The translations under genes and the position numbers were made by a program. This document shows, one piece after another, positions 14,971-17,846 of a DNA stretch of 42,394 nt (position 1 is the stretch's first letter; the number at the start of each line of letters is the position of its first letter). The notes under the pieces were generated by a model, which worked only from the letters and a program-made list of their open reading frames with translations, was not told the DNA's origin and ran no database searches. The stretch is from an alpha proteobacterium SCGC AAA028-C07 (GTDB taxonomy: Bacteria > Pseudomonadota > Alphaproteobacteria > Pelagibacterales > Pelagibacteraceae): the NCBI GenBank assembly GCA_000419465.1, contig ATTB01000006.1, positions 1-42,394 on the forward strand, given 5' to 3'.

Positions 14971-15211
14971 TGTCTTAGAAAAGCTTAGATTTTAAATATA
15001 TCTTTAATTTAGCGATTCAAAGTCTTATATTATTAATGTTGGTTTTCCAACTATGACGATAAACGAGATTCGTAATAAACATTGAGGACCAGGGGGCGGT
15101 ACCCTGCACCTCCACCAATTTCAACTTATGGGGGTGAAATAGAATCGACTAGTGTCTAAAGGCTTTTCTTTCGTCCGGTATAGTACCACCGTAAAGGACT
15201 AAAATATAAAC

Positions 15212-15241
15212 GCAAATGATAAATTTGCTCTCGCTGCCTAA
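15212..15241 (+). other. tmRNA proteolysis tag reading frame (ANDKFALAA-stop)
   Basis: Codons GCA AAT GAT AAA TTT GCT CTC GCT GCC TAA encode ANDKFALAA. With the alanine carried by the tmRNA the peptide would be AANDKFALAA. The A-N-D start and hydrophobic A-L-A-A end are the usual ClpXP/SspB-type degron features. It is shorter than the common alphaproteobacterial tag, which typically has an acidic middle segment. Confidence 0.9.
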
Positions 15242-15262
15242 TTAATTTATTAATTAGATAAG

Positions 15263-15298
15263 CACGGTCTGGGGCACCGGGTAACAGAACGCCCCACT
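15263..15298 (+). repeat. attachment-site copy 1 (left), within the 3' end of ssrA
   Basis: This 36-bp sequence recurs at 17544-17579 with two mismatches; the last 28 bp are identical. It covers the GGGGC/GCCCC stem at the end of the ssrA coding piece. tmRNA genes are well-known integration targets, and an integrase remnant starts 88 bp downstream. It is inferred to be attL of an integrated element; after this copy the T-run found after copy 2 is replaced by 'ATAGATTC'. Confidence 0.88.
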
Positions 15299-15354
15299 AT
15301 AGATTCGAATAGACCGCAGAATCAAATACGTTTTCTTAAAATATTTTCCTTCGA

Positions 15355-15375
15355 CACAACTGTGACACAACTGAA
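15355..15375 (+). repeat. tandem 10-bp direct repeats upstream of the integrase remnant
   Basis: GACACAACTG occurs at 15355-15364 and again at 15366-15375, one base apart, so the period of 11 is one helical turn. Such same-face repeats between an att core and its integrase gene are what integrase arm-type or excisionase sites look like. The second copy also overlaps the possible GTG start of the integrase remnant. The role is inference. Confidence 0.4.
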
Positions 15376-15385
15376 AAGGAAAGTT

Positions 15386-15469
15386 ATGGCAACAATTAGA
15401 AAACGACTTGGTAAATGGCAAGCACAGATAAGAAGAAAAATTATCCAAATATTATATATCCTAACATAA
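15386..15469 (+). pseudogene. truncated tyrosine recombinase (integrase), N-terminal remnant
   Basis: A 27-codon frame with a good ribosome site (AAAGGAAAG, 5-13 bases upstream) begins 'MATIRKRLGKWQAQIRRK', which matches the arm-DNA-binding start of phage-type tyrosine integrases in proteobacteria (M-A-[ST]-I-R-K-R-x-x-K-W-Q-A-x-[IV]-R-R-K). After that lysine the similarity ends, and the frame closes 10 codons on. An in-frame GTG at 15362 is an alternative start. The catalytic domain is absent from the window, so the ancestral integrase was lost by deletion. Its place just inside the left att copy is where such integrases usually sit. Confidence 0.75.
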
Positions 15470-15496
15470 AATAAGAACTTATAATCTGATTTTGTT

Positions 15497-17302
15497 TCAA
15501 TTTTTAAAATTTGAAATTATTTTATTTAAAATCAACTCTGAACCAGAAATACTCAAATGTATATTATCTAAATACATAGCATTATTAAAACCAATATTCA
15601 TTTTACAAATTTTGGAAGGGCAAATTACATTGGTTATGTCTATAAAAACCACATGACTATTCTTAAAGAATTTCTTAAGTGAATTTATTCTATCGAAATG
15701 TTCTTTAGAAACAGTAAAATCGCAATTTCTTTTATAAAAAAAATAACTCTTAAAAACACATTCACCAACACTAAACGGAGCGCTAGGCGTGGGTCCAATA
15801 ACATAAACATCTTTGTGGCTTAATAGTTGCAATAAATTTTTAAACGAAGTCTTAAAAATATTATCATCCATTTCTTTAGAAAATGGCGACGATATAACTA
15901 CTTTTGTAATTGAATTACTGTTATTAATAGTTTTAACGGCTTGTTCATAAAAATCTTTACAAGATATACTATTAACATCTTTTACTTCATCAACGAAACC
16001 GATCGCGCAACTATCTAGGGTTAACTGGACTACCTTGAAATTCTTATCTTTTCTTAAACCATTAACATAAACCATTGCGTAACTATTTCCCAAAACGGCA
16101 AGATTTGGTGAATCGCCTTCAGAGCATGTTTCATTAATAATTGTATTGCCATTACAATTTAAACCCCAGCCATTATTTTGTTGTAGATTTGAAAAAATTA
16201 CAGATCTATTGGGGAAACCGTTATTTTTATGTCCTAAAATTCCTAGGCAAGTTAATAAACTACCCACGATTAAAGAAATGATCAATAATACTTTTAATGA
16301 AATACTCTTTCTGAATGGCATTTCTACAAATCGATATGAAAACCAAGAAAGCATTGATAAAAAAAAAATATAAAAGATCAATTGAATTATTTGATCAGAA
16401 ATCATGTAAGAAGAATAAATCTGCAAAGGAACATGCCACAAATAAATTGAATAGCTAGCTATACCAATATTTACAAATATTTTATTGCCTAAAAGTTTAG
16501 CAACCACTGTGCCTTTGTTGCCATACAATATTATTAACATCGCACCGATTATCGGAACCAATGTAAATACGCTTGGAAATGGAGTGAACTGATCATAAAA
16601 AAAAAATGAAAAAAATATCAAAGCCATTCCTAGTATCGAAAATATATTGCTAGATTTAATGTTTCGTTTCCAGAGCACAAAGGCCACTATTGATCCAGCA
16701 AATAATTCCCAAATTCTAGAATGTAATAAATAAAAATTTGCCTCAGGATTGTTACCCCGGGTTAATTCACTTATTCCAAAACTAATTGTTGTTAATATTA
16801 CAATTATAAAAAATGCTTTTCTTCTTCCAAAACCCCAAATTAAAATTAAAAATGCTGGAAATAAAAAATAAAACTGCTCTTCTACTCCGAGGCTCCAAGT
16901 GTGAAAAAGTGGGTTTTGCCCCTGTTCCAAACCAAAATAATTATTACCTTTAAGAAAAAGAAGAAAGTTACTAACTGAAAAAATTGAAGCAACAGTATAT
17001 TGTCCAACTACTTTATGAGGTCCGGGAAGAAATATAAACCACGATATTATATAAGTAATAACAAGAACAAAAAAAAGCGCAGGTAATATTCGTCTTGCTC
17101 TTCTTTGATAAAAATAAAGAATATTATTTTTTTTGTTTACAATATCTTCAATAAGAATAGTAGTTATCAAATAACCGCTAATGACAAAAAATATGTCTAC
17201 ACCAACAAAACCGCCACTAAAGAAACCGAATCCAGCGTGCAATAGGACAATTGCAATAACACTAATAGCTCTCAAACCATCTATTTCAGCACGATATACC
17301 AA
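15497..17302 (-). CDS. acyltransferase 3 / SGNH-domain O-acyltransferase (OafA/YrhL-like)
   Basis: A 601-residue membrane protein: an N-terminal acyltransferase-3 domain with about ten to eleven membrane segments ('EIDGLRAISVIAIVLLHAG', H22; 'RRARRILPA' at 67-75), then a periplasmic SGNH domain with S407 in 'LGNSYAM' and D579-H582 in 'LDNIHLS'. Such fusions O-acetylate polysaccharides or other envelope glycans. The start is TTG, with AAGGA 9 bases upstream. It is the only intact gene between the ssrA att copies and points away from the integrase remnant. Its substrate may be the glycan made by the cluster after 25.9 kb; that is inference. Confidence 0.92.
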   Translation of the reverse strand: MVYRAEIDGLRAISVIAIVLLHAGFGFFSGGFVGVDIFFVISGYLITTILIEDIVNKKNNILYFYQRRARRILPALFFVLVITYIISWFIFLPGPHKVVGQYTVASIFSVSNFLLFLKGNNYFGLEQGQNPLFHTWSLGVEEQFYFLFPAFLILIWGFGRRKAFFIIVILTTISFGISELTRGNNPEANFYLLHSRIWELFAGSIVAFVLWKRNIKSSNIFSILGMALIFFSFFFYDQFTPFPSVFTLVPIIGAMLIILYGNKGTVVAKLLGNKIFVNIGIASYSIYLWHVPLQIYSSYMISDQIIQLIFYIFFLSMLSWFSYRFVEMPFRKSISLKVLLIISLIVGSLLTCLGILGHKNNGFPNRSVIFSNLQQNNGWGLNCNGNTIINETCSEGDSPNLAVLGNSYAMVYVNGLRKDKNFKVVQLTLDSCAIGFVDEVKDVNSISCKDFYEQAVKTINNSNSITKVVISSPFSKEMDDNIFKTSFKNLLQLLSHKDVYVIGPTPSAPFSVGECVFKSYFFYKRNCDFTVSKEHFDRINSLKKFFKNSHVVFIDITNVICPSKICKMNIGFNNAMYLDNIHLSISGSELILNKIISNFKN

Positions 17303-17543
17303 GACAAAATCCTTACCTAATTAATGCAATAGTTAATTAACTAATGACGGTTATTATTTTTATTAGAATAAAAGTACATTTAAAACTTATAAATACAAAC
17401 AGTAAATTAAATTTTTAAATTACATTTAAAGTCAATTTTTATTATTGCGCTCAAAAGTAATGCCTAGTATGTTCCTTTAAAAATAAAAACTTAAAGTGTT
17501 TTTATTAAAAAGCACAAAGTTCTAGAAAAAAAAATAATATGTT

Positions 17544-17579
17544 CATGGTCCGGGGCACCGGGTAACAGAACGCCCCACT
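17544..17579 (+). repeat. attachment-site copy 2 (right), directly upstream of grxC
   Basis: Second copy of the 36-bp ssrA-end sequence (two mismatches to 15263-15298). Bounding with copy 1 gives a 2281-bp repeat period. It is inferred to be attR, marking the right edge of the islet. The 240 bp between the acyltransferase start and this repeat have no gene I can recognise and are very AT-rich. Confidence 0.88.
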
Positions 17580-17585: not shown

Positions 17586-17846
17586 ATGAAAAAAATTGAA
17601 ATTTATACAACAAATTATTGTCCATTTTGCGTAAAAGCAAAATCATTATTAAAGAAAAAAAATATAAAATTTTCTGAAATTGATGTGTCTAATGATGAAA
17701 CGCTAAGAGAAAAAATGACAACAATGGCAAATGGAGCGAGATCTGTTCCTCAAATATTTGCAGATAATATTCACATTGGTGATTGTGATAAAATTTATAA
17801 GTTAGACCGAGAAAAAAAATTAGATAAATTATTAGGCCTTGAATAA
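17586..17846 (+). CDS. grxC: glutaredoxin 3
   Basis: An 86-residue thioredoxin-fold protein with the active site C12-P-F-C15 in 'TTNYCPFCVKAK', and 'SVPQIFADNIHIGDCD' holding the cis-proline and glutathione-binding Gly-Asp (usually TVPQIFI...GGCDD; here IGDCD). It reduces protein disulfides and mixed disulfides with glutathione in the cytoplasm. No clear Shine-Dalgarno is visible because the T7 tract lies right before the ATG. The ccdA-like gene follows after 7 bp, suggesting a two-gene thiol-redox unit. Confidence 0.93.
   Translation: MKKIEIYTTNYCPFCVKAKSLLKKKNIKFSEIDVSNDETLREKMTTMANGARSVPQIFADNIHIGDCDKIYKLDREKKLDKLLGLE

Follow-up and report, generated by a model that had tools for sequence, protein, structure and literature searches.

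A 2.3-kb islet separates ssrA from grxC in the window, by which we mean the whole analysed stretch of 42,394 nt from the genome of alpha proteobacterium SCGC AAA028-C07 (Pelagibacteraceae). It was formed by site-specific integration at ssrA followed by reduction to one gene, and it belongs to a system of tandem units, mostly lacking an integrase, that extends across the family, a setting that the earlier note on this DNA had missed. Probably, the islet is an ssrA-integrated element pared down to a single cargo gene, the corresponding units of its relatives are mobilised in trans, and the unit in the window is a decayed member of that group. The interval is laid out as follows:

14999–15298, forward strand: ssrA, a permuted two-piece tmRNA gene, the insertion target, left complete (Rfam RF01849, ARAGORN)
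15263–15298, forward strand: attL, the 3' end of the ssrA coding piece, first copy of the direct repeat
15283–15295, forward strand: 13-nt core AACAGAACGCCCC within attL, recurring in arrays across the family
15299–15385, forward strand: left end of the element, with the period-11 arm-type pair GACACAACT at 15353 and 15364
15386–15442, forward strand: 5' remnant of a phage-type tyrosine integrase, about 18 codons, MATIRKRLGKWQAQIRRKI
15497–17302, reverse strand: cargo gene, a 601-aa acyltransferase (AT3) fused to SGNH (PF01757, PF19040; PHROG 6705)
17544–17579, forward strand: attR, second copy of the ssrA end in the direct repeat, followed by seven T
17586–17846, forward strand: grxC (glutaredoxin; PF00462, E 4.2e-21), right host neighbour

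The Rfam model alpha_tmRNA (RF01849) matches 14999–15298 over its full length (model positions 1–355, 238.6 bits), and ARAGORN calls a tmRNA at 15022–15332 with the tag ANDKFALAA. Because the full-length model match stops at 15298, the ssrA coding piece ends with the repeat copy at 15263–15298. A 36-bp direct repeat with two mismatches had been claimed at this end and again 2281 bp further on before grxC, and both copies were found there (15263–15298 and 17544–17579). The inner 33 nt hold one mismatch, and a repeat search of the window returned the longer pair 15252–15298 and 17533–17579 (spacing 2281, 85% identity over 47 nt). With up to three mismatches allowed, the window contains the 33-mer twice and no match to it turned up in 100 shuffles; the inner 28-mer occurs twice in the source genome (0.85 Mb, 32 contigs, 76% complete). 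The seven T after attR lead to the grxC ATG at 17586; a T tract also lies 3' of the repeat at the empty site described below and is absent at attL. The insertion has also put 2.3 kb between ssrA and grxC. Two features of ssrA islands, a target gene left complete by insertion at its 3' end and a distal direct repeat, are present, while the integrase gene expected inside such an island is down to about 18 codons; the islet is therefore the remnant of an ssrA island and not an intact one.

An empty site was found in a single-contig genome of the same genus (G003), where ssrA and grxC lie 5 bp apart with one repeat copy. The flanks of the window, joined in silico, are 94.3% identical to this site over 1415 nt, the alignment having a single 1-nt gap where they meet, as the earlier note had expected of ssrA joined to grxC through one repeat. 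Among the matches listed, ssrA was detectable in at least 7 of the 13 same-genus genomes, with one site empty and six occupied, that of the window included. The expectation that other strains would hold different cargo was also borne out, with FkbM-type methyltransferases at four of the six occupied sites: G011 and G006 carry an FkbM methyltransferase, G012 (single cell AAA280-P20) carries two together with a class I methyltransferase and a degenerate internal repeat, and G002 carries FkbM, an integrase-like C-terminal fragment and a further repeat copy, then more. In G004 the contig ends 124 nt past the repeat, in sequence other than grxC; this cargo annotation does not include the genes next to grxC in G007. 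Two arrangements that had been named as speaking against an insertion were not found. The same repeats and acyltransferase do not occur in all relatives, as G003 is empty and the gene is absent at E 1e-30 from the 12 other same-genus genomes, and the second repeat is not a conserved regulatory structure of grxC, as none of the seven loci from other genera with both genes (L022–L028) has a copy at grxC. We take the single cells AAA280-P20 (G012) and AAA028-D10 (G011) to belong to the freshwater SAR11 clade LD12. In AAA280-P20, the FkbM gene that follows ssrA (L003, minus strand, about 6330–6310) begins with an in-frame run of GA dinucleotides (MREREREI), in which slippage could produce on/off switching.

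The left end of the element comprises 87 bp, and the two arms at 15353 and 15364 agree at 9/9 positions. In G011 (AAA028-D10), the left end is 91.9% identical to that of the window over 74 nt, and the adjoining cargo is different. The repeat, the empty site and this shared left end establish the islet as an integrated element reduced to one cargo gene, as the earlier note had proposed, and the start of an integrase gene agrees with it. This integrase remnant, also claimed before, spans 15386–15442; over its first 18 residues it shares 78% identity with the N-terminus of an intact integrase from the same family of bacteria (L075), and its start follows the arm pair in the same placing as in intact integrase elements, while a Pfam scan of the remnant gave no match. 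The remnant is of the tyrosine type, and no gene of a serine recombinase integration module lies beside attL in 15299–17532. A 20-aa query from the remnant gave one match in phage records (E about 10), and the DNA around attL gave weak matches to phages; both were rejected.

The acyltransferase/SGNH gene that had been reported between the repeats is intact and encodes 601 aa. Its protein carries both domains of an AT3-SGNH O-acyltransferase above the Pfam cut-offs (PF01757, E 3.7e-33, 115.4 bits against 31; PF19040, E 6.6e-29, 101.8 bits against 27) and matches PHROG 6705, "O-antigen acetylase", over its full length (E 1.4e-142). This full-length match makes modification of the cell surface by the cargo likely and a cargo of the lysogenic-conversion type plausible. 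The window gene thus resembles phage-borne O-antigen acetylase genes (PHROG 6705) in its profile but sits in a reduced islet of a SAR11-type host. A phage receptor could be changed by it, a reasonable guess that is consistent with the proposal, in passages of PMC4053759, that phage pressure acts on the evolution of hypervariable SAR11 surface genes. At E 1e-30, 20 of the 197 family genomes have a match to the protein; its own genome is among them, and the remaining matches reach 43% identity at most. None of the 12 other same-genus genomes has one. In two genomes with such a match (G144 and G066), the match region holds cores of the same kind. Five loci in viral contigs match the protein at 26–31% identity; no solved structure matched it by sequence, and a PADLOC defence search with it found nothing.

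The core within attL is widespread in the family. At least 159 of the 197 family genomes contain it, at least 82 of the 197 have more than one copy, and the highest number in one genome was seven among the matches listed, against one occurrence of a reversed control pattern. As the 13-mer was the search bait, its identity among copies follows from selection, which does not apply to the arm pairs or to the conserved bases on its left side, both lying outside the bait. The arrays fetched for comparison, a non-random sample chosen for several cores or an integrase, show core copies downstream of ssrA on one strand, mostly with one to three small genes between them in mixed orientations. Across the compared loci, the 55 inter-core intervals (up to two mismatches) have a median of 1087 bp and range from 241 to 4739 bp. 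Most arrays follow ssrA and some lie elsewhere; for instance, contig 4 of G187 carries a non-ssrA array of seven cores (two imperfect) in 2.4 kb. Individual units recur as well. A two-gene unit is 97–98% identical over 1.7 kb in three genomes, standing second in the array of L051 and first in those of L063 and L064, and a unit of the ssrA array in G042 is 93.8% identical over 355 nt to one in the off-ssrA array of G187. In 53 genomes of the sister family, where ssrA ends may differ, the 23-nt site was not found among the matches listed. In the open-licence literature, no title or opening abstract describing ssrA-core arrays in SAR11 was found.

Copies of the ssrA-end core away from ssrA, as arrays or singly, occur in L052 (G187), L053 and L054 (G058) and L083 (G193), and an rnhA-like gene adjoins those of G187 and G193; the names of neighbouring genes in other genomes (leuB, mazG, rnhA, nadA, peroxiredoxin) come from reading translations. 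A Pfam scan of one marine array found a family above the cut-off in one of its ten proteins. Defence genes were considered as the cargo of one marine array and set aside, PADLOC giving one weak match (E 0.0054) among nine proteins. Cargo proteins in L049–L051 and L058–L064 share a common leader (MKKLLAIVVLGLLWSG or similar) and differ in their mature parts, and a secreted family with DDIRDFQIEGMSIGDSLL recurs in the same loci, one member of which had no Pfam match when scanned.

Many units carry a period-11 direct repeat roughly 44–60 nt to the right of the core, whose sequence differs between units and agrees within the pair. Such arm pairs reach at least 7/9 at 31 of 84 core sites, compared with 1.3% of 12,300 random windows, with score thresholds and distances set after seeing examples. 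A period-11 pair of at least 7/9 also lies shortly before the start codon in nine of eleven intact integrases (background 3.7%), all of the same general type, four with a tRNA called alongside and one at ssrA. Arm-type motifs are further found at the right ends of several units, and several relatives have such sites at both ends. A left pair is present in 27 of the 55 intervals; in these, the motif on the left matches its own right end better than the right ends of others (mean 6.89 versus 6.39; reached in 4 of 5000 permutations, again with thresholds and distances set after seeing examples). This agreement between the two arms of a unit is suggestive, not overwhelming. In several unit families, the left ends are alike to just past the arm pair, after which the cargo diverges.

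Integrases are rare at these sites. When 12 integrases and two fragments were compared by tblastn with 49 loci, arrays and empty sites among them, traces (E<0.1) appeared in two, the N-terminal piece of the window and the G002 fragment. With a tRNA-type integrase as query, relatives were detected in 16 of 397 family genomes, and a core lay within the fetched locus in only one. By eye, no close pair was seen between integrase places and ssrA places among the matches listed. All phage-record matches to the integrases are below 60% identity, the best at about 32% (20 Pelagibacter phage records among 270). In G223, ssrA, a core and an arm pair are followed directly by an integrase (L105 7103–9013). 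A second core lies on another contig of this genome (L203 1–2698), with a motif resembling the same arm sequence on its left and host-like DNA on its right, and an open frame on the left side matches the C-terminus of a phage primase (E 4.2e-7). The last frame of the first contig and the first frame of the second are both open, which makes a compact integrase–primase element likely; it is possibly a satellite able to serve as helper. No good helper candidate was found in the window's own 76% complete genome, only a divergent integrase: a 395-aa tyrosine recombinase on contig 7 (G000; L079 2620–3807; PHROG 1, E 2.7e-8) was considered for this role and set aside as unsupported, being of a different, divergent type. 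Small ORFs surround this recombinase, and its C-terminus resembles the integrase fragment of G002.

These observations can be joined in one mechanism. An element integrated at the 3' end of the permuted ssrA, which stayed complete, the copied end becoming attR. The window element has lost the remainder of its integrase and kept its intact acyltransferase gene. In relatives, the tandem units of about 1 kb, usually with one to three genes, core copies between them, unit-specific arms in many and no integrase in nearly all, would be non-autonomous mini-elements composed of attP and cargo. Satellites or phages may provide, in trans, the integrase that inserts and excises them, with the ssrA end as the fixed entry point; such a helper would have to recognise the arms of the unit, and the ssrA element of G223 may exemplify its source. 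The window unit would be a decayed, probably immobile member, whose acyltransferase may O-acylate a surface glycan, and phage adsorption could change. The trans-mobilisation part of this mechanism draws on the relatives and not on the window unit, since the right-hand arm motif is unrecognisable in the window (5/9) and weak in G011 (6/9).

The main rival is plain decay, in which separate full-length phages or satellites integrated at ssrA and then suffered deletions in a streamlining genome, with no mobilisation in trans. It is a serious alternative, though we think it the less probable account of the family, and it would be enough for the window alone, where the first integrase codons are kept; the integrase-like C-terminal fragment in G002 is also what it would leave. 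Integrase traces in only two of 49 loci are fewer than it suggests, the likeness of left ends within unit families to just past the arm pair would be odd under independent deletions, and left and right motifs have remained matched. A flexible island after ssrA, whose contents are swapped by homologous recombination between flanking genes with the repeats as passengers, appears improbable. A single position with changing surface-related cargo does resemble replacement islands, and passages of PMC4053759 describe, for this clade, regions of hypervariable surface genes and, for marine SAR11, a high level of recombination. Yet the unit boundaries are copies of the ssrA end, the empty site closes within 1 nt, and cores with genes between them also occur away from ssrA, including the unit shared by the arrays of G187 and G042. 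A reading of the arrays as true integrons, whose integron integrase has gone unrecognised, is very improbable. It would fit the small genes set between recurring recombination sites, the presence of an anchor site and the secondary arrays that lack an integrase, but genes lie in both orientations instead of mostly in one as in cassettes, the repeat is the ssrA end with nearby sites that resemble the arm pairs of phage-type integrases, and in three stretches tested the repeat hairpin did not fold better than shuffled sequence.

Beyond integration and trans mobilisation, a wider reading is offered tentatively. SAR11 genomes might exchange, in an integron-like manner, integrase-less units of one to three genes, each with a complete attP made of the ssrA-end core flanked on both sides by its own arm sites; small satellites or phages would act as helpers that stack the units at ssrA and at secondary sites, the arm sequence would serve as a code for which helper moves which unit, and the cargo in the freshwater genus would be mainly of the surface-glycan type. 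SAR11 bacteria are among the most abundant bacterial groups and have very small genomes. If the reading is true, a precise ssrA entry point, units of about one gene and helper sites would allow the gain and loss of single genes without mobile-element machinery. The arm motif predicts which helper pairs with which unit, which makes the idea testable. Integron cassettes and integrase-less cassette clusters also place small genes between recombination sites, in arrays without an integrase gene. The SAR11 sites differ from them in being copies of the ssrA end with phage-type arms and genes in both orientations, and no integron integrase was seen: in 13 same-genus genomes searched with PF00589, the single match was weak and lay on another contig of the window's own genome. 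Passages of PMC4053759 report that SAR11 strains differ in their surface genes.

The closest precedent is found in Dehalococcoides. Passages of PMC2764846 and PMC3146451 describe islands lined up in tandem at ssrA, among which copies of the ssrA end recur; some of the islands lack an integration module, and for 15 of this kind the papers discuss possible cis-mobilization and movement by accretion. Integration there is probably due to a serine recombinase (DsiB), and the cargo consists of reductive dehalogenase operons, whereas the SAR11 side has a tyrosine-type integrase, a permuted ssrA, units of about 1 kb and arm pairs beside the core. According to part of the Islander report (PMC4383910), tRNA and tmRNA genes are long-established island targets, and islands of this type share with the window integration by a tyrosine integrase at the ssrA 3' end, a restored target and a displaced fragment at the far end. 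The window differs in its reduction to one cargo gene with no integrase, and its relatives in their tandem small units. Tycheposons and satellites, in passages of PMC10872708, are likewise cargo elements that use tyrosine recombinases and occur in streamlined bacteria of marine and fresh waters; the tycheposons described there span 4–200 kb with a recombinase gene, whereas the SAR11 units are about 1–2 kb and integrase-less. Among the SAR11 elements, only that of G223, with integrase and primase, is satellite-like.

Viral contigs were scanned for related sequences. The exact 28-mer of the ssrA end, the arm pair of the window, and the G223 integrase together with one cargo protein were not found in them, and no excised circle or attP was seen. 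Near relatives of the integrases in viral contigs, no exact core was found in the best 80 of 226 confirmed, and six viral loci with scattered core matches at two mismatches were set aside as chance. A looser search with a 23-mer returned eight contigs, rejected as attP candidates since all matches lay in complete phage-borne tmRNA genes. These eight viral contigs (L035–L042, IMG/VR) carry their own permuted tmRNA genes, that of L035 within a contig of 242 kb; phage-borne two-piece tmRNA is described in a part of PMC9004378.
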